This document shows positions 3,781-37,851 of a stretch of 37,851 nt of DNA, piece after piece. Position numbers and translations under genes: made by a program. This stretch comes from a virus: positions 1-37,851 of IMG/VR virus record IMGVR_UViG_3300025655_000012. The stretch is one strand, 5' to 3'. The notes below the pieces were generated by a model that saw only the letters and a list, made by a program, of their open reading frames with translations, had not been told where the DNA came from and did no database searches. How positions within the stretch are numbered: position 1 is the stretch's first letter; each line of letters begins with the position of its first letter.

Positions 3781-5777
3781 TATTCAGCCCTCATTTTAAA
3801 GCGTGAAATGGTAACGGGTGTCGCGCCTACTATTCTAAGCTTAAACCCTATGCGGTGACGTATGCGACCAAGGCGGCGAAGTATCGAGCGACCAAGCCAC
3901 TGTGACGGCCTATCAATAATAATAGGCACCTCAGTGCCATAAATTACACCGTCTTCAGTTGATGACACTAACAATCTAGAAGCGACCGAGGCGATACCTT
4001 GACCTGATGTTAATTCCATATCGTAACCAACCATGTTTGTGGCCGTGATTATCGGCGTATAAAGTATGATTTCTTGGTCAATATTGTATTGACTAGAGCT
4101 TTTATCGTTAGTGGTACCTGTAATGGCTTCAAGCTTATCACCGCAAGTTGTGCGGCCACCTTCAACCATAAAGTCTATTGCTCGGTACGTTCCTTCACAT
4201 AATCCTGTCTTAAGCCTAACCCAATTACCACGGGATGCATCAAAAGCAAGTGTTTCCCTTGGTAGATGGATAATTAATAGCTTATGCTGAAGGAATGAAA
4301 GGCTTTCAAGTGTAGCGGTAGCCAATTCATCAGGCGTATATTCTGCCAGCAATCTATTAACTAGGTATCCTGATATTTCGTTATAAACACCTTGACCCAT
4401 AGTGGCAATAATTACTTGACCTCTTGACGGGCTCGTAATGAAAGCAAATGTATCCATGAATGAAGTTATTGCAAACTGTCCAGCGATACCTACTGGTACC
4501 ATGTAACTAGGCTGAACTTGTACCAGACTTTCAGCGTTACCAGTTAACCTAAAAAACTCAATAGTAGAACTCCCAAATGCAACGATGAAATCTCGCCATT
4601 CTCTCATGGCCACAATGCCATCAGGCATATTCTCTGCGCTGTAAGCAGGCGCTATCTTGTCGGGCTTACTTTCATCTTCAAGGCTAGTTAGCCAGAATCT
4701 ATCAGATCCTTTTTCAGCGAACACATAGCGGCCACGAATACGGCAAACATCGCCAACACTTCCCCAGTCATATTGTGGATTAGGAATAACGGTATCTTCA
4801 ACTTTTTGCGTGAATTCTAGAATTGAATAATCTTCTTCTGAAATATTGCCAAGGTTATCATTAATAAAATCGATTACTTCTACCGCTGAAGGATTAACGG
4901 GATCAATCTCAGTCCATAAGTCGTTAATCTCAACTATTCGAGTGTTAGGCGCGGCTATCTCGTCATCAATGAAAGCCATGTTGTCTGCAACTGATTCTAA
5001 ATCTATGTCAGCGCGCGACCAGATTGTTCTTAATGCTTTAGCTCTGTTAGTGGTTCCTGTTATCGCAGCACTCCAAGGGTTAGTAACTGCCGTGAAGTTA
5101 GGAACAAACTTATACTTGATTGATAGACTTGCTCCAGCAAACTTAATGCCGGTTATCTTAAGATCTTTAATGTATGGGATGCCTAAAGCTGGTTTGTCTT
5201 GCGAATATGATTCAGAGAAGTCGGCTTCACTTCGAGTTATTGCAGCACCAACAGCCCCGCCACGAGTAGTCGGAACAATAGTAAATGTTAGCGTGCCAGT
5301 TTCATTTGATGCAGTAATCAATAAAGAGTCACCGGCTTGATTATGAACTGACTTGGATATTGAGCTATCAAAGCCCGGGTAAGTTTCGCTGCCAGACCAG
5401 TTTGACAGGGTTTTAATCTGTCCGTCATATCTGTAGAGGGTTAGCTTATTATTTGCTGACACAGCTTGTGAGGTTCTACCATGCGCCATTGATACACGCT
5501 CTGTGCCGCCAACGTCACCAATAACTGAACCGTCTAGATAAAGGCTGCCACCCAATACGCGATAAGGTAATTCTTTAATTGTATTCCAATGTGCGCCGCG
5601 ACTAACTCCAGCAACGTCTTGAAGCTTATTAATGCCAGGAAAGAAACGGAAATAGCCCTCGACATCATCGACGGCTCTGAACACTGGAAGGATATTTGTT
5701 GGAAGTAGATCGACGTAATCAGCATTCTTACTGCTGCGCCCATCGCCTTTTAATAGTGGTAGGTTGAATTCTGGCAT
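3780..5777 (-). CDS. gp10-like tail hub / packaged DNA stabilisation protein with a large insertion
   Basis: A 665-aa protein that is recognisably P22 gp10 along both ends: KNADYVDLLP, a VSRG block, RVSMAHGRTSQAV, LEDESKPDKIAP, FIVAFGSSTIEFF, LLIIHLPRETL and a C-terminal GRIRHRIGFKLR. gp10 forms the hexameric ring between gp4 and the needle and closes the filled head. The usual length is about 470 aa. The extra roughly 195 residues lie at about 135-335, between the LSNW motif and the VGDVCRIRGRYVF motif. ATG 5777 was chosen for its GAGGTG ribosome binding site. That site lies in the loop of a perfect 8-bp hairpin described separately. Confidence 0.93.
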   Translation of the reverse strand: MPEFNLPLLKGDGRSSKNADYVDLLPTNILPVFRAVDDVEGYFRFFPGINKLQDVAGVSRGAHWNTIKELPYRVLGGSLYLDGSVIGDVGGTERVSMAHGRTSQAVSANNKLTLYRYDGQIKTLSNWSGSETYPGFDSSISKSVHNQAGDSLLITASNETGTLTFTIVPTTRGGAVGAAITRSEADFSESYSQDKPALGIPYIKDLKITGIKFAGASLSIKYKFVPNFTAVTNPWSAAITGTTNRAKALRTIWSRADIDLESVADNMAFIDDEIAAPNTRIVEINDLWTEIDPVNPSAVEVIDFINDNLGNISEEDYSILEFTQKVEDTVIPNPQYDWGSVGDVCRIRGRYVFAEKGSDRFWLTSLEDESKPDKIAPAYSAENMPDGIVAMREWRDFIVAFGSSTIEFFRLTGNAESLVQVQPSYMVPVGIAGQFAITSFMDTFAFITSPSRGQVIIATMGQGVYNEISGYLVNRLLAEYTPDELATATLESLSFLQHKLLIIHLPRETLAFDASRGNWVRLKTGLCEGTYRAIDFMVEGGRTTCGDKLEAITGTTNDKSSSQYNIDQEIILYTPIITATNMVGYDMELTSGQGIASVASRLLVSSTEDGVIYGTEVPIIIDRPSQWLGRSILRRLGRIRHRIGFKLRIVGATPVTISRFKMRAE

Positions 5778-6068: not shown

Positions 6069-6784
6069 TAAGCGCTTTCTATCCTATTCTTTGCTATTTC
6101 AAAATAATGATCATCCATCTCAATACCGATAAACTTGCGGTTAAGATTCTTAGCCGCGACTCCTGTTGTTCCGCTTCCCATAGTGAAATCTAAAACCGTT
6201 TCACCTTCATTGGTGTAGGTTTTGATTAGATATTCCATTAGTGCAACTGGTTTTTGAGTTGGATGCAATCCACCTTGTGCGTTATTAAACTGCAGCACAC
6301 TATTAGGCATTGTTTTATCTGCTGGGCATTTGTGAGCATCTAGCTTGTGATCGCCATAGCAATCTGTTTTCTTAGTTCTGTTTGTTACTGGTCTAATGTT
6401 GGCTGCAGGTTTATCTTTTAGCTCTGGGTTATATGTTGGCGGCTTACTATAAAAAACAGCTAAATCTTCGTGAGCCCTCATCGGCATTCTCCAAGCATTT
6501 AAATGGCCTGTACTTTGCGACTTATTCCAGACCATAGAGTACTTGAACATTTTTAAATTTGACGTAACTAACACGCTAGTAAACGGCTGACTAGCTGTCA
6601 TTACAATCGCCCCATTAGGCTTAATAATCCGCTTCAACTGATCCCACATTAAGCTTAAATCAATGACAGAATCCCATTTGCACATAGTGGTGCCGTAAGG
6701 CGGGTCAGTCAAGATCATATCGATACTACCACTTTCAATTTCTTTCATACGCTCAAGGCAATCTCCTTTCATTAGGTTAATCAT
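6068..6784 (-). CDS. DNA methyltransferase, beta-class (N6-adenine or N4-cytosine)
   Basis: A 238-aa S-adenosylmethionine-dependent methyltransferase. The catalytic DPPY lies at residues 27-30, HPTQKP at 174-179 and the AdoMet-binding FTMGSGTTG at about 200-208. The order, catalytic motif first and AdoMet motif last, defines the beta class. DPPY usually means adenine N6, but N4-cytosine cannot be excluded. No restriction endonuclease is nearby, so it is an orphan enzyme, probably protecting phage DNA or altering regulation. It sits in an accessory cassette inserted between the tail genes gp4 and gp10, downstream of that cassette's own promoter. Confidence 0.93.
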   Translation of the reverse strand: MINLMKGDCLERMKEIESGSIDMILTDPPYGTTMCKWDSVIDLSLMWDQLKRIIKPNGAIVMTASQPFTSVLVTSNLKMFKYSMVWNKSQSTGHLNAWRMPMRAHEDLAVFYSKPPTYNPELKDKPAANIRPVTNRTKKTDCYGDHKLDAHKCPADKTMPNSVLQFNNAQGGLHPTQKPVALMEYLIKTYTNEGETVLDFTMGSGTTGVAAKNLNRKFIGIEMDDHYFEIAKNRIESA

Positions 6785-6945
6785 AATAAACCCAACCCCT
6801 TTAACATGTTTCTATCTTCAAATTCATTTAACGCATCCACTCGCTTCTTTGCTTTAAGGCATAGCTTGGTAGGTCTTCGATTAGCGTTAAATGCTGCCTT
6901 TTCTGCTCTATACTGTGCAGATACTTCTTTTTTATTAGAAATCAT
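6781..6945 (-). CDS. Small basic hypothetical protein (54 aa)
   Basis: Reads MISNKKEVSAQYRAEKAAF... and is rich in Lys, Arg and Ala, probably all-helical. GAGG lies 5 nt before the ATG. Its TGA overlaps the methyltransferase ATG (ATGA), a typical coupled junction, which suggests expression at a fixed ratio with the enzyme. No family is recognised. A 17-codon open frame lies just upstream (6946-6999), overlapping the end of the 92-aa gene; it is too short to call. Confidence 0.65.
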   Translation of the reverse strand: MISNKKEVSAQYRAEKAAFNANRRPTKLCLKAKKRVDALNEFEDRNMLKGLGLL

Positions 6946-6991
6946 TTAAACCTCTACTTGGTAATCTTCACCGAAAAACTGAGTGTTATCT

Positions 6992-7270
6992 TTATACATG
7001 GTGTTCACCTCTAGCTCTTTCTAGTAGTTCGTCAACCACATCGGACAGGCCTTTATCTTCGCTTAAAATTGATAAATCAGATATTAGCTTTAGCTTTTCA
7101 TACATCTCATTAGCTACAGCAAATAATTTAGCGTCATTTTCTGCATTATCACCATATAACACGGCTATTGAGCCACCATGGAATGGTGCGATTTCTTTAT
7201 CTAAATACCAAAACCCACTTGACCCTTTTGGCTTTGTGGCAACAATTTTACCTTTAGTAAACTTTTCCAT
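6992..7270 (-). CDS. Hypothetical phage protein with 'NAKLFAVANEMYE' motif
   Basis: A 92-aa soluble protein, first gene of the methyltransferase cassette. The central part (GDNAENDAKLFAVANEMYEKLK, in two halves around residues 40-61) matches a motif widespread in small phage proteins of unknown function, usually seen as NAHLIAAAPEMYEAL. The first half is beta-like, the second helical. It is preceded by the promoter and operator-like repeat at 7294-7330. No biochemical role is known to me. Confidence 0.7.
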   Translation of the reverse strand: MEKFTKGKIVATKPKGSSGFWYLDKEIAPFHGGSIAVLYGDNAENDAKLFAVANEMYEKLKLISDLSILSEDKGLSDVVDELLERARGEHHV

Positions 7271-7293
7271 ATCTATTCACCTATCTGATTAAA

Positions 7294-7330
7294 GTGATAT
7301 CAATATAATATACTATTCGATATCACACAA
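7294..7330 (-). promoter_or_regulatory. Promoter and operator-like inverted repeat of the methyltransferase cassette
   Basis: On the minus strand a -35-like TTGTGT (7325-7330) is followed after 17 nt by a -10-like TATATT (7302-7307). A perfect 8-bp inverted repeat, GTGATATC (7294-7301) and GATATCAC (7319-7326), brackets the -10 and touches the -35. A dimeric protein binding there would block the promoter. Candidates are the RHH proteins or the Cro-like protein; this is inference. Confidence 0.6.
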
Positions 7331-7333
7331 GGT

Positions 7334-7355
7334 AAATAAAACCCCTTTCGAGGTT
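7334..7355 (-). terminator. Rho-independent terminator after gp4
   Basis: AACCTC-GAAA-GGGGTT, a 6-bp stem (one G-U) closed by a GAAA tetraloop, followed by TTATTT on the minus strand. It begins at the gp4 stop codon, separating the upstream virion genes from the methyltransferase cassette. Confidence 0.7.
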
Positions 7356-7836
7356 AAATAGTGATTTCTTCAATCGGAGTGCTATTAATCACATCTATCA
7401 TTTCTTCATCTGTCGGCATGAAAGTATTGTGATAGCCGTAACAACATCCTCTATCACCCGCGCCACTTGGCTGCATTGGGTTTTGTTTGTATGTCGGCGG
7501 TAGCGTACTGAATAAGTTGGCATACGACTCCTTTGCTGTAGCTGAAATGATAGGGTTAACTGCGCGCCCCATTATCGGAGCAATGGCAAATGCTAGGTTA
7601 GATACAAATGCTAAAGTATCTGGGCCGGTAACACCTGAGTCATCGCCAGGGTCTGCTGATGTAATATCGTCGGCAATCTTATAACCAGTGTTAAGCCCTT
7701 TAGACTCCCAAGCCTGCGCCATTATCTCAAGTTGAAATAGTGAATCCTCAATCTCTTGAGGGTCGGGAGCGGTTAAGCTGTCAACTATGCCGGACATCTT
7801 TAACGCCTGAATTACTAGATCGCCTTTGGTAATCAT
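7354..7836 (-). CDS. gp4-like head completion / tail accessory protein
   Basis: A 160-aa protein, close in length to P22 gp4 (166 aa). It starts ITKGDLVIQALKMSGI, like gp4's N-terminal TKGDLVRAALRKLG, and continues with the LE-MAQAW / ITGY-like motif and a helix-rich middle (FAIAPIMGRAVNPII). gp4 binds twelvefold beneath the portal as the first tail factor added after packaging; in P22 it also has muramidase activity, which I cannot judge here. In P22, gene 4 likewise follows coat and precedes gene 10. Confidence 0.88.
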   Translation of the reverse strand: MITKGDLVIQALKMSGIVDSLTAPDPQEIEDSLFQLEIMAQAWESKGLNTGYKIADDITSADPGDDSGVTGPDTLAFVSNLAFAIAPIMGRAVNPIISATAKESYANLFSTLPPTYKQNPMQPSGAGDRGCCYGYHNTFMPTDEEMIDVINSTPIEEITI

Positions 7837-7838
7837 AA

Positions 7839-8123
7839 TTAAGCCTTAATGCTCATGTGATCTTTAACCATCTTAATCACTGTTTTGTGGTGAATACCTT
7901 CAATGTCGATATCGTTTGCAGCAGCGTAAGCCTTAGCCTCTTCAAGAGTGATAGCTCCATCGCCGTTAGTATCTGCTGATTCAGTTGCCAAAGCTTCTTC
8001 AAGCGTCAATGACCATCCTTCAGCTTTCTTTTCATCTGCAAGCTCTTCATTGATAGCTTCGATAGAATATTCTTGGCCTTTATCGGTAGTGCGATTACCG
8101 CCTTTCTTGAAAATGTGAATCAT
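7839..8123 (-). CDS. Small virion-region protein with an EF-hand loop and HeH/SAP-like C-terminus
   Basis: A 94-aa acidic protein. Residues 51-62 (DTNGDGAITLEE) form a canonical EF-hand calcium loop with Asp, Asn and Asp at positions 1, 3 and 5, Gly at 6, Ile at 8 and Glu at 12, flanked by helices. The tail (AAANDIDIEGIHHKTVIKMV) resembles a helix-extended-loop-helix/SAP-type motif found in small phage head proteins. It lies between coat and gp4 with a GGAG site. It may be a minor capsid or head-tail joining protein needing calcium; that role is inference. Confidence 0.65.
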   Translation of the reverse strand: MIHIFKKGGNRTTDKGQEYSIEAINEELADEKKAEGWSLTLEEALATESADTNGDGAITLEEAKAYAAANDIDIEGIHHKTVIKMVKDHMSIKA

Positions 8124-8135
8124 GGTTATTTCTCC

Positions 8136-8171
8136 AAAAAAAATAAGGGGCAGCTAATGCCACCCCTTATT
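8136..8171 (-). terminator. Strong terminator after the coat gene
   Basis: AATAAGGGG (8142-8150) pairs with CCCCTTATT (8163-8171), with an inner GC pair in the loop. On the minus strand it runs into a stretch of eight T. It sits between coat and the EF-hand gene and would cut transcription after the most abundant virion product, allowing partial readthrough to tail genes. Confidence 0.85.
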
Positions 8172-8194
8172 ATAAGTTACAAACCTATTAATAA

Positions 8195-9454
8195 CTAGGC
8201 TTGACCAGCTAAGATGATACCCAACTGATTTGGGTAAACAACTTGTACGTCATAGAACACGACGGCTTTCATGTTGAATACTTCTTTGTGCGGATCGTAC
8301 CAATAAGACATGCGCATTGGTAGGCCTTGTGAAGTAGTAGCTTCAACAGAACGAACGCCACCAGCATCGCTAGGGATTGGCAAGCGACCAGGTACAAGCA
8401 CGGTTGATTCTGGCGTGTAGAATAACGACGGCGCAGAAGTAACCTTGTTTAATACCACGATAGCAGCACCAGTAGCAGCCTGTGCAGTAACGTTGCGATA
8501 AGCGCCATCAACAACAAGTGCTGGTGAAATCGTAACAGTACCTGTACCGGTAGCAACAACGGTAATCGTTTGCAGCATACCTGAGTCAGTACGGGTTTCA
8601 GGATGCAGCATGTTAACGCCTGCAATAGTGAACTTAGTACCAACTGGCATGGTTAATGCTGTAGCGTTAGTAACAGCTAATGACATAAAGCGGTTGTCTA
8701 AATAGAAGCCGTTAGCGTCATAAGTTGCAACTGTATGCTTTTGGTTACCGTTAACCGTTAGCGTAGCAGTAGTGTTACCAGCTAGGTTTAGTAAGTAATC
8801 AGAGCGCATTGTTTGGAACGTTGCTAGGTCTGGAATGCGAGCGCGTGTGATTGCGTCATTAACCAGAATGTCACGGCTAGCCTGACCAAGCTCTTTAGCT
8901 ACTTTTGCATAGTGAGAGTTAGCAAGGAACAGTTTGCGGCCAAATGCGCCCAAACCATTGTTAAGCATTAACACTTCAGCGTCGATACCATCATTAAAGC
9001 TAAATGCGCCGGTGTTAACTTGAGTCATTGTCGCTTGGTTGATCATGGTTTGATAGCAGTCAACGTCGATTACGTTAGCGATATCACGAGCAAAACCATC
9101 AGCAACTTTCTTGCGGCGCATTGGGTCGCGTAAACCTTTAGCATCAATTTGCGCTAGAACACGCTTTGAGCGGCTACGGTTAACGGGGATCATGCGGTCG
9201 ATAATGTTTTCAAAGTCAGCATCAGTAGAGATAATGCCGTCTTTTGGAGTGAAGCGATACTCTTGCGGGATGTATTCGCGGTCACTGCCAGCGTCGTTGC
9301 TGTTGTCGCTTGCGCTTGCGGCACGGTCTTTATCAGCCATGTCGTCCATGTTGTACACTTCTAAGTCTTTAGAAAGTGTCATCTTCATAGATGTAGTTTC
9401 TGCGGCTTCTTCCCACAGAGTACACATCTTGTCATGAGCAAATGTATTAGCCAT
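8195..9454 (-). CDS. Major capsid (coat) protein, P22 gp5-like HK97 fold with I-domain
   Basis: A 419-aa protein (P22 coat is 430 aa). It sits directly after the scaffold gene and before a strong terminator. The middle segment, about residues 225-340, has the character of the P22 insertion (I) domain: DNRFMSLAVT, VGTKFTIAGVNMLHPETR and VTISPALVV mirror P22's DNRFATVTLS, GDKISFAGVKFLG and VEITPKPV. The C-terminus ends in a hydrophobic QLGIILAGQA. Hundreds of copies build the icosahedral shell around the scaffold. The ATG at 9454 has AGG upstream and the gene ends in TAG, so TAG is used as a normal stop in this phage. Confidence 0.92.
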   Translation of the reverse strand: MANTFAHDKMCTLWEEAAETTSMKMTLSKDLEVYNMDDMADKDRAASASDNSNDAGSDREYIPQEYRFTPKDGIISTDADFENIIDRMIPVNRSRSKRVLAQIDAKGLRDPMRRKKVADGFARDIANVIDVDCYQTMINQATMTQVNTGAFSFNDGIDAEVLMLNNGLGAFGRKLFLANSHYAKVAKELGQASRDILVNDAITRARIPDLATFQTMRSDYLLNLAGNTTATLTVNGNQKHTVATYDANGFYLDNRFMSLAVTNATALTMPVGTKFTIAGVNMLHPETRTDSGMLQTITVVATGTGTVTISPALVVDGAYRNVTAQAATGAAIVVLNKVTSAPSLFYTPESTVLVPGRLPIPSDAGGVRSVEATTSQGLPMRMSYWYDPHKEVFNMKAVVFYDVQVVYPNQLGIILAGQA

Positions 9455-27303: not shown

Positions 27304-28305
27304 ATGAAAAAAGTAGTTAGCGATAGCGGAGGAAGGTCTAGCAAGTACCTGTCAAAGATAATGCCTGATTTGTTTGGCGTTAATAATGTTGATTTCGTAT
27401 TTATGGATACTGGAGCTGAACACGAATTAACATACCAATTTATTAGAGAGTGCAACGACCACTTCAACCTAAACCTTGTATGCTTGCGTGGTGACTTTTC
27501 ACTACCAATTGGTAAAGGTGTTGGCTACAACGTTGTTGACATAAATGATATTGGTCCAGACCTAAAGCCTTACGAAGAAATGATGGCTAAGTATGGAGTT
27601 CCTTATACTGGCGGCATGTTTTGCACTGACAGAATGAAGCTAAAGCCTTACAAAAAGTACTGCGATGATAAATACGGTAAAGGCAAATATGAAACGTGGT
27701 TAGGAATTCGATTTGACGAACCAAAGCGTCTTGTTGGTGATAACCCAAAGTATCCATTGAAATCAGCATATAAGCAGCTATCAAATGATGGGCTTAATGA
27801 TGAAGAAATAAGCCTTTTGTATGTAAATTCTAGAAAAGACATTAATGAAATAAACCAGTGGGAAATAAGCGATCTATCAAAAGAACTGCTTGCAAAAAGA
27901 ATTACTTATTTAGATAAAGAAAATCTGCACTACTTGGCTGAGGTTTGTGAGCTTGAAAAGAAAGATATAATTAGCTACTGGTCAAAAATGCCATTCGATT
28001 TACTTATTGATGAGTGGAGCGGCAATTGTGAATACTGCCCTAAAAAGTCAAGCTTAAAGCTAGCGGCATCAAAAATTGATTCCCCAAAGTCTTACGTCAA
28101 GTTTGTATGCGCGCTGCATTCGGATTCAGTTCGCGTAGATGATAAAACAGGCCATTGGTCTAAAATGTATCGCGGCAATCAATCGCTTGAGCAGTTAATA
28201 GCAACGTTCGACGGCTCAACTGGCGATGAAATTAAAGCTCGTATGCGAGGAGCTAAACATCTTGATACAGGAAGCTGCTCAGAGTCGTGCGAAGTCTTTA
28301 GTTAG
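27304..28305 (+). CDS. PAPS-reductase / ATP-pyrophosphatase family protein
   Basis: A 333-aa protein of the adenine nucleotide alpha-hydrolase fold. The PP-loop is SGGRSS (8-13), with FMDTGAEH (33-40), a CTDRMKLKP block (Cys107) and LGIRFDEPKRL (133-143), all landmarks of phage PAPS-reductase-like proteins. Cys242 and Cys245 (GNCEYCPKK) with Cys107 might hold an iron-sulfur cluster, as in DndC. The insert at about 155-230 is helical. The reaction is unknown; sulfur transfer to DNA or RNA, or nucleotide activation, are the possibilities. GGAGG lies before the ATG. Confidence 0.8.
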   Translation: MKKVVSDSGGRSSKYLSKIMPDLFGVNNVDFVFMDTGAEHELTYQFIRECNDHFNLNLVCLRGDFSLPIGKGVGYNVVDINDIGPDLKPYEEMMAKYGVPYTGGMFCTDRMKLKPYKKYCDDKYGKGKYETWLGIRFDEPKRLVGDNPKYPLKSAYKQLSNDGLNDEEISLLYVNSRKDINEINQWEISDLSKELLAKRITYLDKENLHYLAEVCELEKKDIISYWSKMPFDLLIDEWSGNCEYCPKKSSLKLAASKIDSPKSYVKFVCALHSDSVRVDDKTGHWSKMYRGNQSLEQLIATFDGSTGDEIKARMRGAKHLDTGSCSESCEVFS

Positions 28306-31019: not shown

Positions 31020-31050
31020 ATAGCGCAGCCGTTAAGCTGCGCTATCTTTA
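31020..31050. terminator. Two-way terminator between convergent operons
   Basis: ATAGCGCAGC pairs with GCTGCGCTAT, 10 bp, loop CGTTAA, then CTTTATTT on the plus strand. On the minus strand the stem is followed by TGTTTC. It ends the rightward early operon and the leftward tail operon, whose last gene stops at 31052. Confidence 0.9.
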
Positions 31051-31051
31051 T

Positions 31052-31780
31052 TTAGCTAATTCCGTAAGAGCTAACAATTACCCCTGCTGAAGATGGTGCG
31101 CCACCGGAAGCTGCTTTAGAGATAACCGATACCGCTTTAGATGCATTGTTAGTTACATGCCTAAATCTAAACCTTTCACCAACAACGCCTTTAATGGCAA
31201 GCGTTATGTCAACGATTCGGATTTCATTAACTTCACTGCTTGATATGGTCACCCGTCGAGCCGTGCCAGGGTATGCAATCCAAGTAACGCCATTATCAAT
31301 TGATGTTTCAACAAATGCAGCCCAAGTTACCGACCCGCCTGCAGTTTCTCTGATTAGCTGAAACGACGCAGATAACATTAAGCTGCCATTAAGTAAGAAT
31401 GTAAATTCTCCGTCAGCAAGGCTAGCCCCTAGCAGCTCAGTTTCCCATTGATGCGCAGTAAGGATTAACCCTTGTGGCACGTCGCTTGTAACTAGAGTTT
31501 GTTTAATGTCGGATCCTGTTGTCGTCAAATAAACATCACGCGAGCTTTTGCCTGTTTCAATTCCATCAGGAATTATAGTGGTTACCTGTGAGCTATCGCT
31601 CATTGTAAGTGTGAGAGTTTCGCCAACATAGCTTGCAGATGAAACATACTTATTGCCAATAGAGTTTTTAATTACTGACGCTACAACCGCCCTAGTTCTA
31701 GAGCTTTCACTATCCCAAATTGGGATTATGTCGTTATCGTTTAGGCTTTCTTTCTGGTTTAACTCATTTATTTTTGTCAT
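31052..31780 (-). CDS. Small tail fibre-like or tailspike accessory protein (242 aa)
   Basis: The N-terminal 40 residues (INELNQKESLNDNDIIPIWD, SESSRTRAVVASVIKN) match the short motif found at the start of many phage fibre and receptor-binding proteins. The rest is beta-rich with TWAAFVETSIDNGVTWIAYP and a Gly/Ser-rich end. It is the last gene of the tail operon, after two tailspikes; it may be a third adhesin, a decoration or a chaperone-like partner. AAGGAG precedes the ATG. Confidence 0.6.
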   Translation of the reverse strand: MTKINELNQKESLNDNDIIPIWDSESSRTRAVVASVIKNSIGNKYVSSASYVGETLTLTMSDSSQVTTIIPDGIETGKSSRDVYLTTTGSDIKQTLVTSDVPQGLILTAHQWETELLGASLADGEFTFLLNGSLMLSASFQLIRETAGGSVTWAAFVETSIDNGVTWIAYPGTARRVTISSSEVNEIRIVDITLAIKGVVGERFRFRHVTNNASKAVSVISKAASGGAPSSAGVIVSSYGIS

Positions 31781-31793
31781 AAGATCTCCTTAG

Positions 31794-34175
31794 CTAGACA
31801 AAAGAAACTGCTGATAGGTCAATGTCATTTATGACCATTCCATCAGTGTATATTGGTGAAATCTCAGTACCGCCAACAGGTAGATTAAACCCGTAGCAAT
31901 TACCATCAGTGCCAATATAAGCATTAGCAACGCCCAAAGGTAAAGTTGATTTCAATGCTGTGCATGGCTTCATTGTTACCGCAGTTGGGTATAAGTATTT
32001 AGGCAACTTCATAAATGGATTTCCTTCAGCTACACCAGCGCCGCCAAAGTCAACAGTGCCTGATATAACAAACCCTTTCATAGTTGGCCTTGATACCAAC
32101 CCAAATCCATTACGCATCCAGCTAGGCGGTACTGACTCAAATGGCTGCATGCTTGAATCATCAAACCTATGCAGCGCACCCAATACAGATTCAGACCAGC
32201 CTAAGCCAAGCATCATAGCTCCGTATGGCGTCGGGTGGATGTTATCGACTAGTATCGAGTCTATCTGCTCACCTTCAACAACTGCGTCCAGCCAAGAAGC
32301 TGTCATGGCTCCGAAATCTTTCATTGACTGCAGGTTTACCAACCCACCAGCGCTAGCTGCGGCACGAATTAATACCGACCGATAAGTATGAACTGTGTCG
32401 TTGTTGGCGGTATCTTGTCCACCAGTTTGCCCGTGCGCATTTGCTTCTGCTTTTGAATAAAATGAAGTTGGTAATCCTATAATTGGTATAGCTCCAATCG
32501 TTCTGGCGTAGTTGCATATATTTGATATTGTCGCGCTAAATGCTGCTGTTGGTGTCAACCCTTGCGCATCATTAACTCCAACCTGACATAGCACAAAGTC
32601 ATAACCAGCGCCAATAGTTTGCAATCTAGCATATTGCTGAGATGCTGTCTCTCCTGCTACCGATAAGTTTTTAAGCTCTGCTAGTTGTTGGCCTTGAGTT
32701 TGAAGAATACTCGCCATGTATCGATAAGGTGAATACTGGACATCGTTGTCGCTAATGGAGTCACCAAGCGCGATAATCCTTAAGGGCTTGCTGCCACCAG
32801 TTGAGTTTGTTTTAACTGACGAAAACTGTGACACAAACGTTGTATTGGATATATTGTCAGTTCCGAACATCACGCCAATGATATTTGATCGGGTGCTATA
32901 GGTCCCGATAACCATACCGTTACATAACACGCTGAACTTTCTAGTAGAGATAACCCTGACGCTTAATAGCCCGTTGTTGAATAAGTCCCTCTGCTGCTCC
33001 ATTAGCGCATAAGAAACCCCAACAACAACGCTAGGAAGCCCATTAACGCCTTCATTAAGTACCACTGCTTGAGTAGAGCTGTTTTGTGAGTAGTAAGCCT
33101 GACCGTTTAAGGTTTTAACTCCAGCAAAGAAGATTCCGCTTGATGCATTTTGAATTAGCGCAAAAACCTCCTCACCAATCTTTGAAGCCTTGACAGCAGC
33201 AATTAATTTACCGGTACCATTAAATGATATTGTATCTGACACCCTAGTTAACGGTTCAATTGTGTTATCGGGATCCGCCAAGTCAATAACAACAAAGTTT
33301 TCTCCAGAAAGCGCCCTGGGTTCTGAGTAGATTCCTTGAGTTTGGGTTATTGTTGGTAATGTTGCTGAAGGTCTTAACCCTACTTTTTGGGCGCCGTAAT
33401 TCTTAAAGCCAAAGTTTTGCTGAATCTTCAATAGTTCGCGATTGTATTTAAGATCGTTGTTAGCAAATGGGCTATTAGCAACGCCGCCACTGTAGATAAT
33501 GCGAAGGTAAACCCCTTCATCGGCCACAATCTCAATAGGCGCTAATACTGGTGTAACATCATCACCATTAATAAAATAGCCGCCAGTGTCGGTTTTAGGC
33601 AAATACATCTTACCCCCACCAATACTGTTTAGATAAGTAAAGTACTTAGCGAACGCTATTAAGTTGTTAGTTGTGGTCAATGTGCCGTCATCGTCATCTA
33701 CACCGCCGAAATCAAGAATAGTTCTATGGTCTTGCAATACATCCTGAAGCACCCTAACAACTCCGTCATTAGTTGGTGAAATACTAGCGGCATCATGAGC
33801 TTCACCATTGCCAGGTGTTCTACCAATTAAGTCTTGGTGATTTGCGCTTGAAAAGTCAATCGTTCTAATGTCGTTAACTCGCCACTTTTCAGCATTAAAG
33901 CGATCTAACACCACCATTGAATAAGGCGTGTCGCAAACAAACTTTGATGGATGCCCCTGATAAACAGCAAAGCCACCTGAGTTAATTTCAATAGGTTGAT
34001 CAACTAAAGTCTGCAAGCCATCTTCACCAACTGAATATATTGGTATTTGCTGTGTTTCGTTTAGTGGGTCTGTGTCAACTTGACCAATGTATATTTTACC
34101 GCTGAACATAGCTTTTAATGCTAATGGGTCGGTAAATATCTTTGTTAGCGGTGCGGATATTAGGTACTATGTCAT
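31794..34175 (-). CDS. Tailspike 2: P22-type head-binding domain plus SGNH esterase domain, with an amber codon at codon 3
   Basis: From ATG 34175, with AGGA 10 nt upstream, the frame reads M-T-stop(TAG)-YLISAPLTKIFTDPLALKA and then ATG 34109 followed by FSGKIYIGQVDTDPLNETQQ and 749 further residues. The head-binding fold of P22-like tailspikes clearly includes the part before ATG 34109. Downstream are a beta-helix entry (ILDFGGVDDDDG) and an SGNH hydrolase at about residues 441-645 of the 771-aa part: GDS (Ser451), Gly486, Asn513 in GVND, and Asp622/His625 in DNIHP. This would deacetylate surface polysaccharide. The protein may need readthrough or restart at 34109, or the TAG may be a mutation. 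Confidence 0.8.
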
Positions 34176-34205: not shown

Positions 34206-34233
34206 AAAAGACGGCTCGTTGAGAACCGTCTTT
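34206..34233 (-). terminator. Terminator between the two tailspike genes
   Basis: AAAGACGG pairs with CCGTCTTT around an 11-nt loop (inner CTC/GAG). On the minus strand TTTTCC follows. It lies 16 nt past the tailspike 1 stop and 31 nt before the tailspike 2 start, so the second tailspike would be made in smaller amounts or from its own signal. Confidence 0.75.
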
Positions 34234-34249: not shown

Positions 34250-36244
34250 TTACGGAATTAGCAATCCGACACCTATTAGTAACCACTTCTTTTCTAGTGA
34301 TGCGTATACCCAAGTAGCCCCAGACCTAGCCCCAGACTGAGAGCCAATAGTGACCGCTCCTGTAGGTATGACGGCAGTTGTTCCGTTTACAATCTCGACA
34401 TTTCCGCCGCGACCTATCATATGCAATACAGTCCCGTCACCAGCAGGAGTCCCAAGAAGCATTCCTGCAATATCTCCTATTGTACAGCCAGTATACGCTG
34501 CTCCACCGTTAACGTACTGAGTGATAACCTGACCGTCTTGGTTGATAGGGATAACAAAACCATTGGCGTTAACCTGTACTAACTGGTTGCCATAGTCCTC
34601 AGATACAAGTAGCCCTGTTGAGCTTCTAATTTCAGTTGCGGCATCTTTAACCAAATTAGCGTCACGAAGCGTTAAAGGTATAGCGACCGATGATTGAGTG
34701 TTAGGTGATACATAAGACTTAGCAGCTTGCAATCTTACAGAGCCGCCAAGGGCAGTCATTGCTTTTTGCCAACCACTTACCGCTAACTGAACGTTTGACC
34801 CCCTAGCTACAATGTTTTCATTAAAGTCTGAAAACGATGCGGTTAGGTTTGCGTTCTGTAGTGTTAAATCTCCGTTGAATATGGTCTTATACAATACTTC
34901 CGAGCTAGTGGTTTGCATGTCTCCACCAGATGCAATGCGTATCGCTCCGTTAGCTGTGCAGCTTTGCGCGAACTGAATGAAGCCTGTGCAAGTTACATTG
35001 CCTATGTCAGAGCCTGCTCCAGCTAGTGAACATGCTGATGTTGCGTACACTACTACGTCAGCAGTAGACCCGCTTATCTTACTTGATATAATTTCAGCCC
35101 ATCCGCCAGCCTCACAAACTAAACCTATACCAGCACCAACACCACCAACATCTAAATTTCTACCGTGAACGTAAGCGCCCCTATGTGATACTAGCAAAGA
35201 ACTTGAAGACGCCCCTGATTTAGGCTTTATTGATAAGTCCTGTAGCGCTATTTCTGTACCTGAAACGTACACACCGTAAGGATACCCACCTGCTGGATCT
35301 GTTTCTATAATTGAAACTCCGACACCAGCGCCACGGATAACAACCATACCTGTTAAATCTGTTCCACTCTGCGCTGTTCTTTTTGCAATATATTTACCTT
35401 GAGGATAAAATATCGCGGGCCTAGGCATAGATGCTGCCGATCTTGATGTCTGGTTACATGTTCCGCTGAACAGTGCGAATTCCTGCTTTTTGTTAATGAA
35501 ATTTGGCAAAGAGTCCCAAGCAAATTGAAGAGTTTTGTACGCACCAGAACCCGGCGACAAACCCGCACCCCAAGCGTCAGATCCTAAATCTTGATCAACA
35601 TAGAACGTTTGCTCTGTGTAAGTTTCTAGTATACTTTCCTTATAAACTAATGCGGTTTTACCACCACCGGCATTGAATACGTTATACCCATTTACCGTAC
35701 CTCCATTTTGAATAACTGCCAATGCGTTGTTATAGTCGATCAGGCGTACAATTGTATTTAGTGGATAATCATGGGTAGGTAGTTCAGCTATCGATGTATT
35801 TACACCATGAATCTTAGATAAAGCATCCAAACGTTGCGATGCGATAGCCGTGTCAGGCAGTCCGTTTGGTGTGATACCCGCTTCTGATAACAGGGCGTTT
35901 GAGAATCCATTCCAATCATCGCCGCTTAGATTGAATACCTTATCAACTCGCCATTCTTCAACATTGTTAGCATTTTTTACTACAATAGAAAATGGCTGCT
36001 TAACAACGAACTGTGAAGCGCCTCCGTTGTAAGATAAAAAACCTCCAGCATTGATTGCTATTGGTTGGCTTACAGGCACGCAATCACCGCACCCATTTTT
36101 ATGATAAACCTGTATCTGCTGAGATACGTTTAAAGGGTCGCCGCACTCTATGCCAACATACACTTTACCGTTAGCAACAGCCTTAAACTGATTGTTAACA
36201 GTAAATGGTGTAAACGGGTCATTAACTAAAAATTGCTGAGCCAT
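34250..36244 (-). CDS. Tailspike 1: P22-type head-binding domain plus beta-helix
   Basis: A 664-aa protein. Residues about 5-108 form the P22 gp9-type head-binding domain: NQFKAVANGKVYVGIECGDP, NVSQQIQVYH, PIAINAGGFLSYNGG, PFSIVVKNANNVEEWRVDKV. The rest is a parallel beta-helix (GSGAYKTLQFAWDSL entry, then repeated GVYVSGTEIALQDLSI-type turns) and a beta-rich trimerisation end. Tailspikes bind and often cleave O-antigen or capsule; the substrate is not readable here. The unusual CGDC pair at residues about 52-55 adds cysteines to the head-binding domain. It starts 2 nt after the gp16-like stop. Confidence 0.88.
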   Translation of the reverse strand: MAQQFLVNDPFTPFTVNNQFKAVANGKVYVGIECGDPLNVSQQIQVYHKNGCGDCVPVSQPIAINAGGFLSYNGGASQFVVKQPFSIVVKNANNVEEWRVDKVFNLSGDDWNGFSNALLSEAGITPNGLPDTAIASQRLDALSKIHGVNTSIAELPTHDYPLNTIVRLIDYNNALAVIQNGGTVNGYNVFNAGGGKTALVYKESILETYTEQTFYVDQDLGSDAWGAGLSPGSGAYKTLQFAWDSLPNFINKKQEFALFSGTCNQTSRSAASMPRPAIFYPQGKYIAKRTAQSGTDLTGMVVIRGAGVGVSIIETDPAGGYPYGVYVSGTEIALQDLSIKPKSGASSSSLLVSHRGAYVHGRNLDVGGVGAGIGLVCEAGGWAEIISSKISGSTADVVVYATSACSLAGAGSDIGNVTCTGFIQFAQSCTANGAIRIASGGDMQTTSSEVLYKTIFNGDLTLQNANLTASFSDFNENIVARGSNVQLAVSGWQKAMTALGGSVRLQAAKSYVSPNTQSSVAIPLTLRDANLVKDAATEIRSSTGLLVSEDYGNQLVQVNANGFVIPINQDGQVITQYVNGGAAYTGCTIGDIAGMLLGTPAGDGTVLHMIGRGGNVEIVNGTTAVIPTGAVTIGSQSGARSGATWVYASLEKKWLLIGVGLLIP

Positions 36245-36246
36245 GG

Positions 36247-37851
36247 TTATTCCTCTGTGGTTGCTTGACCTACACCTGCAATGCCTAACGCTTGCGCTAG
36301 TGCTGGGTAACTTCTGTTGATTTCTATGGCTAGTTTAAGTTGATCTGGCTTTGCTGCCAAAGCTTTATTAACTTGCGACCGTGTTGCTGAGTTTTTGGAT
36401 ATAGTGCCAATTGTCTCATTAATAAGATTTCCGACTAAAGGAACCTTTGAGGCAAGCCCAAGACCAAAGAGCTTATTGGCTATTTCAAGGTTAACCATTG
36501 CTGAACCTTTCGGTACTGCTGAGCTTGATGGCTGGATCAACTTTGCAATTTCGCTAATGTTGTTGATCTTCTTTAAAGCCGCTGGATTGTTAGCAAATAG
36601 AATGTTTAATTTATCCTTGCCAATTTTATCAACCGCTTTTTTATATGCCCCTGCACCAAAGGTATTAACACCGTCGATTTGCCTAGTTCCTGCACCGAAA
36701 GCATTATCCATTATTTGCAGGATTGCAGTTGATTGAAGATCGCCAATAGCCTGCTTACCTTTTTGTCCAGATTGCGACAAGGTTTGCATGGTTCTTAATA
36801 AGTCCTCTTTTGTTCCAGTAGCACCAAGAAGCTTAGGCGATACCTTAGAGGCTTCTATGATTGGCGTAACGCCATCACGCTTTAAGCCTGATAGTCTTCC
36901 AGCAATTGACTGAGGGCTAAACTCTGTTTTCTCTTGTCGTACTGCCGCCCTAGCTTGCTTTAATGTTTCTCTTAGTGCTGGAGGAATACCTACTCCAGCT
37001 TCAGTCATTAACTCTAGTTCGTCATCTAGCGCGCGTTTAATTGGCCCGATAGCAACACTTGAAGCGCCTGTTTGGTCGCTGCGTTCAATACTGTTAAGCG
37101 TCTTTCTGAATCGCTCTACGTTCTCAATATTTAATGGCGTTGTAGCAACCTCAGCGCCTTCTGCTGCTGGTTTAATTCCATACTTAACCAAGATGCCATC
37201 TAAAGCTTTTATTTGGCTTGGCGCGGTTATGGCTAAGTCTTCAAGATCTGCAACCGGTATTGATGCATTAATGCGGTCGGTCACCACATCAACGCCGCCA
37301 GCACTTGCTGCTTGCTCTTTTGCAGACTCGTACAATGCGCGTCTTTCTGTCTTCATTTGGTTAAGGCGTGAAGATAAGGCTTCTTTGGTGGCCTCGCCAG
37401 CTCGTTCTGGTACGCCTGCAGCAAGCTCTGATTCTAATGAACCTCTAATGGCTTCGGACTGTTGCAATCGCTTAGAGCGAAATGGATCCGCTAATGGATC
37501 GTTTGATGATTCTATTAAGCGAGCCTCAGCAGTTTGGTCTGGTAGCTGCTTGGTAATATCTCCGCGAGTGTAAGGAATGTCAGCTTCATTAAACACTGCC
37601 ATTCTCGCAGCTTGTTCTGGGCTGGTTGATGGCGGCAAGTCTTGCATTTGTTTTAATGCTTTATCTGATAATGCGTCAAAATCTAAACCAGCGTCATCAA
37701 GCACCTTTTGCACTCCTGGAGTTGGCCTGCCTGCTTTAGTCAATACACGACTTGGAGCAGCCTTACCGGTTAACCTGCGATAAGTCGCGCCGATAGCCCT
37801 ACCAACATAAGGCAAAGCAGCCTCAAGGCCAGCACCGAGTAAAACGCCAAC
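36247..37851 (-). CDS. gp16-like DNA ejection (pilot) protein, C-terminal part; begins at the other end of the window
   Basis: This is the remaining roughly 490 residues of the split gene (37724 to 36247), plus the duplicated 127 bases. The sequence is rich in Ala, Lys, Glu and Gln with long predicted helices, as in other gp16-type pilot proteins, and ends in TTEE. A shorter reading from TTG at 37815 is possible but is not the real start, because the frame is open upstream to the ATG at 694 of the joined genome. The stop lies 2 nt before the ATG of tailspike 1, so the two are probably cotranscribed, recalling the 16-to-9 gene order of P22. Confidence 0.85.
   Translation of the reverse strand, partial: VGVLLGAGLEAALPYVGRAIGATYRRLTGKAAPSRVLTKAGRPTPGVQKVLDDAGLDFDALSDKALKQMQDLPPSTSPEQAARMAVFNEADIPYTRGDITKQLPDQTAEARLIESSNDPLADPFRSKRLQQSEAIRGSLESELAAGVPERAGEATKEALSSRLNQMKTERRALYESAKEQAASAGGVDVVTDRINASIPVADLEDLAITAPSQIKALDGILVKYGIKPAAEGAEVATTPLNIENVERFRKTLNSIERSDQTGASSVAIGPIKRALDDELELMTEAGVGIPPALRETLKQARAAVRQEKTEFSPQSIAGRLSGLKRDGVTPIIEASKVSPKLLGATGTKEDLLRTMQTLSQSGQKGKQAIGDLQSTAILQIMDNAFGAGTRQIDGVNTFGAGAYKKAVDKIGKDKLNILFANNPAALKKINNISEIAKLIQPSSSAVPKGSAMVNLEIANKLFGLGLASKVPLVGNLINETIGTISKNSATRSQVNKALAAKPDQLKLAIEINRSYPALAQALGIAGVGQATTEE
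37725..37851. repeat. Terminal direct repeat, right copy (assembly overlap)
   Basis: This is the second copy of bases 1-127. Removing one copy gives a unit genome of about 37,724 bp. It lies within the coding sequence of the gp16-like ejection protein and has no genetic boundary at its edges, as expected for an arbitrary opening point. Confidence 0.95.

Follow-up and report, generated by a model that had tools for sequence, protein, structure and literature searches.

What does an in-frame stop at the third codon of a tailspike gene mean in a phage whose other tailspike is intact? The question arises in the 37,851-base IMG/VR virus record IMGVR_UViG_3300025655_000012, which we analysed along its whole length and call the window. 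The first-pass annotation had listed three options, namely readthrough of the stop, restart at an internal ATG at 34109, and a mutation or mixed population, and that list was well drawn. Taken together, the evidence suggests that tailspike 2 is probably a genuine accessory receptor-binding protein gene behind an intact main tailspike, and that the window holds a recent nonsense allele of it in a phage that keeps its first spike. An ordinary nonsense mutation in an accessory spike gene would account for everything seen.

The window has a P22-like gene order (portal, scaffold, coat and a gp10-like closure protein) and, on the replication side, genes for NinG and primosomal/replication O-like proteins. 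A phosphoadenosine phosphosulfate reductase-like gene (phrog_33262; window 27304-28305) sits among the plus-strand genes. Because the ends form an exact 127-bp direct terminal repeat (1-127 = 37725-37851), the genome is very probably complete and circular, at about 37.7 kb (~37,724 bp); the injection-protein gene seen at both window ends is likewise very probably one gene split by the contig ends.

The interrupted frame and its start codon

The features of the tailspike 2 gene are as follows.
31794 to 34175, minus strand: tailspike 2 reading frame, with a head-binding domain and a GDSL hydrolase module; codon 3 is the sole interruption, and the frame terminates in TAG.
34173 to 34175, minus strand: ATG start codon of tailspike 2, with AGGA at 34189-34186 and the register found in the IMG/VR spikes L023, L030 and L040.
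34167 to 34169, minus strand: in-frame TAG at codon 3, read directly from the sequence.
34107 to 34109, minus strand: first internal ATG, at codon 23, a possible restart that has no Shine-Dalgarno sequence (-0.1 kcal/mol) and whose use removes strand E4-7.
33855 to 34172, minus strand: P22-type head-binding domain of tailspike 2, which contains the TAG (Pfam match and AlphaFold2 model).
32220 to 32771, minus strand: GDSL lipase/acylhydrolase domain of tailspike 2 (PF13472), with the catalytic motifs GDS, GxND and DxxHP present.

Direct reading confirmed the amber codon and the open frame claimed to follow it. The minus strand reads AATAGGAATGCTTAGCC-ATG(34175-34173)-ACA-TAG(34169-34167)-TAC-CTA-ATA-TCC-GCA-CCG and is afterwards open until TAG 31796-31794; with this one stop and no other lesion, more than 770 codons beyond the TAG stay open. 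Over residues 4-107 the frame matches the P22 head-binding domain (Pfam PF09008), the profile match spanning positions 11-106 with an E-value of 2.7e-22 when the 5′ part is included versus 2.9e-18 from the internal ATG. The N-terminal head-binding domain is thus complete, though codon 3 is a stop, and translation from the start typical of the family is interrupted by the TAG at 34169-34167. By its sequence the gene is related to the PF09008 family, and the assembled allele would not be a working member unless recoded. An AlphaFold2 model of the domain, in which the TAG was entered as a residue for modelling only, has a mean pLDDT of 87.5 and superimposes on the P22 structures 1lkt and 2xc1 with TM scores of 0.86-0.87 (0.83-0.87 over 2xc1, 1lkt and 7sg7). 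The GDSL motifs are common to Aeromonas phage phiA014S, and tailspike 2 as a whole is a fusion of a P22-type head-binding domain with a GDSL hydrolase/receptor module.

ATG 34175 had been named as the best start, and it stands as the true start because three IMG/VR spikes (L023, L030 and L040) match its length and register, no indel being required. The window opens M-T-*-Y-L-I-S-A-P and these spikes open M-S-N-Y-[LV]-I-S-M-P; in L040 the DNA matches nearly codon by codon (ATG TCA AAT TAC CTG ATA TCC against ATG ACA TAG TAC CTA ATA TCC in the window). They belong to a set of 37 related-spike starts gathered from IMG/VR and genome loci, in which the start was chosen mechanically as the nearest upstream ATG, a rule that gave one member (L105) a Met downstream of its likely start. 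The spike of Shewanella phage ZP9 opens MANQYLV and tailspike 1 opens MAQQFLV, and the TAG of tailspike 2 occupies the site of Asn or Gln in relatives, directly ahead of the first strand. The AGGA said to precede ATG 34175 is present, but it stands 10 nt away compared with 6 nt in tailspike 1, and its pairing is weaker: the anti-Shine-Dalgarno pairing energy is -4.2 kcal/mol at 34175, -6.0 at tailspike 1 and -0.1 at 34109.

An alternative start in another frame, at ATG 34185, would give M-L-S-H-D-I-V-P-N-I, joined to the spike frame by a one-base frame change, and its DIVPNI resembles the D-I-I-P-N-V opening of enterobacterial spikes. We consider it exceedingly improbable: the AGGA abuts this ATG directly and leaves it without a usable Shine-Dalgarno sequence, its frame closes in fewer than 30 codons, and the YLIS-opening relatives fit ATG 34175 in length and register without any indel. 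It was rejected on the register of L023, L030 and L040.

A second alternative accepts the early stop and has ribosomes restart at ATG 34109 (codon 23), yielding a spike 2 whose head-binding domain is cut short at the N-terminus. Early stops can permit restarts, as in lacI, which counts in its favour, and the frame from 34109 still has 771 codons and scores as Head_binding. That ATG, however, has next to no pairing with the ribosome, and the collected starts of intact homologues all precede the strand equivalent to YLIS. As the first-pass annotation had held, the residues between the stop and Met23 belong to the family; they align with it and include an invariant P and F. Restart would forfeit residues 1-22, with the first beta-strand (E4-7 in the model) and two invariant residues, and because of that loss a spike clipped at Met23 would probably fail to attach. 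We regard restart as quite unlikely. Homologues that start naturally at the internal ATG had been named beforehand as an observation that would overturn the amber interpretation; none was found among intact relatives, and a natural start of tailspike 2 at this ATG was rejected on the same ground.

Two spikes in tandem

The neighbours of tailspike 2 on the same strand are as follows.
34250 to 36244, minus strand: tailspike 1, intact; its head-binding domain is joined to a receptor module resembling the one in Pseudoalteromonas phages HS1/HS5/H105-1.
34207 to 34233, minus strand: strong hairpin ending in a short U tail, located between tailspikes 1 and 2 and intrinsic-terminator-like by its fold.
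31052 to 31780, minus strand: gene for a 242-aa protein that resembles tail fibre proteins in its C-terminal part (phrog_26397, phrog_37013); it closes the late unit.

An intact main spike is followed by a second that bears a single lesion, the pattern of an inactivated accessory receptor-binding protein. The receptor module of tailspike 1 matches that of HS1/HS5/H105-1 at 47-50%, and the head-binding domains of the two tailspikes are about 40% identical. In the tree both lie on very long branches (1.3 changes per column), whereas that of ZP9 is short (0.21). Judging by branch lengths, both window domains look as if they had diverged fast. Tailspike 2 as a recent duplicate of tailspike 1 was rejected, given the ~40% identity and the long separate branches.

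Two tandem P22-type spikes with different C-terminal modules are unusual. No second record with such a pair was found among 182 phage records (183 places); the single double among them, NM-3, repeats the same gene block and is a duplicated assembly, and the loci retrieved, like the full phage records, have one P22-type spike each. P22-like tails bear six trimeric spikes (PMC3741392), and because there are six positions, tailspikes 1 and 2 would be expected to compete for them if both were made. Under the nonsense reading, translation would begin at ATG 34175 and end after a dipeptide; spike 2 would be absent or nearly so, and tailspike 1 would fill all six positions of the virion. From this we infer loss of tailspike 2 expression, its dispensability and a consequence for host range. 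If the nonsense reading is right, the window presents a natural loss of an accessory receptor-binding protein caught before decay, in an unusual two-spike P22-like phage, and tandem spikes sharing a type of attachment domain raise the question of mixed occupancy on a six-position tail.

The 171-nt region with the hairpin between the tailspikes has a fold z of -4.0; a consensus terminator scan did not list the hairpin. A promoter search for tailspike 2 gave no minus-strand match nearby, and the matches found were at chance level. The 242-aa gene after tailspike 2 has a strong Shine-Dalgarno sequence (-9.1 kcal/mol), and its product is possibly a third tail-associated protein. Downstream of it, a terminator-like site at 31020-31045 is listed on the plus strand.

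Age of the lesion and possible residual expression

Of 62 head-binding domains in 60 genomes or records, only that of tailspike 2 contains a stop (0/61 others), and the codon-3 stop is more than chance. Comparison of this codon with related phages, proposed with the first-pass annotation, found Asn or Gln in relatives and a stop in none of the 61 other domains. An orthologue of tailspike 2 was not found in either state, intact or interrupted, the head-binding family alone being known intact. In phages no DNA relatives of its N-terminus were found, and in IMG/VR neither close relatives of tailspike 2, the injection protein or gp10 nor any match to a degenerate IFTDPLALKA pattern; 395 genomes of the order held no near relatives of tailspike 2 and two distant hits only.

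Broken or truncated head-binding reading frames do occur elsewhere, as decayed copies in Arsenophonus (L113, L115 and L116). An IMG/VR phage (L073) has a 113-aa head-binding frame (4977-5318) apart from a 587-aa frame (6729-8492); here the spike has been shortened or divided in some other way. Because broken or truncated spikes are found in L073 and Arsenophonus, the loss of a spike gene would not be exotic in itself.

No decay is detectable from the TAG to Met23: the similarity of residues 4-22 to relatives is 0.375, compared with 0.404 +/- 0.069 in comparably diverged pairs, in a test whose power is low (19 codons, no close relative). This would fit a young lesion, or else a gene that retains some level of use. 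Because the remainder of the tailspike 2 frame has not decayed, the lesion appears to be recent.

The undecayed post-stop segment and 770-codon remainder would also be expected from continued low-level expression, that is, if readthrough or natural amber suppression by the host gave a little full-length tailspike 2 and virions bore spike 1 in the main, with a spike 2 now and then. A low dose could matter where two spikes with like head-binding domains compete for six positions. Several observations speak against this reading, which we hold to be unlikely. No tRNA genes were found in the phage genome, which leaves the phage without a suppressor tRNA. That TAG serves as an ordinary stop elsewhere, as claimed, was borne out: in the mechanically compiled list it terminates 12 of 46 reading frames, including those of coat, gp10 and tailspike 2, and because of this strong suppression would lengthen many proteins. 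Programmed readthrough would be marked by a stop conserved in relatives and set in a readthrough context, and the codon-3 stop is conserved in none of them, no orthologue of the whole gene being known. To our knowledge, UAG followed by U is not regarded as a leaky context.

Phage-wide reading of TAG as Gln (genetic code 15) was rejected, since TAG ends 12/46 frames and the phage has no tRNA; reading TAG=Q across the genome mostly appends short tails. For comparison, the amber suppressor tRNA Sup-CTA is present in 52% of code-15 phages (PMC11210395).

Readthrough, if real, would amount to host-range dosage control. In its most specific version, the amber codon would let only traces of spike 2 be made, through basal or host-dependent readthrough, a few virions would bear the alternative spike, and the phage would thereby control host-range dosage or hedge its bets. 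This version strikes us as very doubtful; we know of no host-range dosage control in this phage group. The earlier proposal of a single-base on/off switch for host range is likewise unsupported, there being no suppressor tRNA, no conserved stop and no recoding of TAG.

Alternatively, most or many genomes in the population may have a sense codon 3, the contig having taken the other base. The 127-bp terminal repeat suggests a circular contig from a k = 127 graph assembly, and such assemblers merge single-base variants into one path; a frame undamaged apart from codon 3 also fits a mixed population. Substitution errors in short-read consensus sequences are rare, which weighs against an artefact, and we rate this alternative as rather unlikely. 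A nonsense allele of an accessory spike remains the reading that we prefer.

Comparison with known systems

The closest parallels for a nonsense allele of this kind are lambda PaPa, with its frameshift in stf (side tail fibre), and Gordonia phage SoilAssassin, with gene 29; in these, adsorption and plaque size change when the accessory fibre is lost (PMC4929510). As in the window, a single small mutation has hit an accessory or second receptor-binding gene towards the end of the tail operon, and the main adsorption organ is intact. The lambda PaPa lesion is a frameshift, whereas that of the window is a nonsense codon; both parallels have known intact sisters with plaque or adsorption phenotypes, whereas no intact sister was found for the window.

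P22 gp9 and Sf6 gp14 share with the window the head-binding domain (35-39% identity; predicted fold with TM 0.83-0.87) and the late position after the DNA-injection genes. The surveyed P22-like phages have one spike, in contrast to the tandem pair of the window, with its different C-terminal modules and its second member stopped at codon 3. Along most of its length the GDSL module of tailspike 2 shares 34-36% identity with that of the Aeromonas phages phiA014S, phiA014L and ST21 (Autographiviridae); in phiA014S it is carried on an unrelated N-terminus, and in the window on a P22-type head-binding domain. The nearest named relative is Shewanella phage ZP9 (OR636717), whose gp10-like protein matches at 57%, whose DNA matches at 73% over 1.7 kb at the junction of injection gene and spike, and whose head-binding domain matches at 51-54%. 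Unlike the window, ZP9 has a single, uninterrupted spike.
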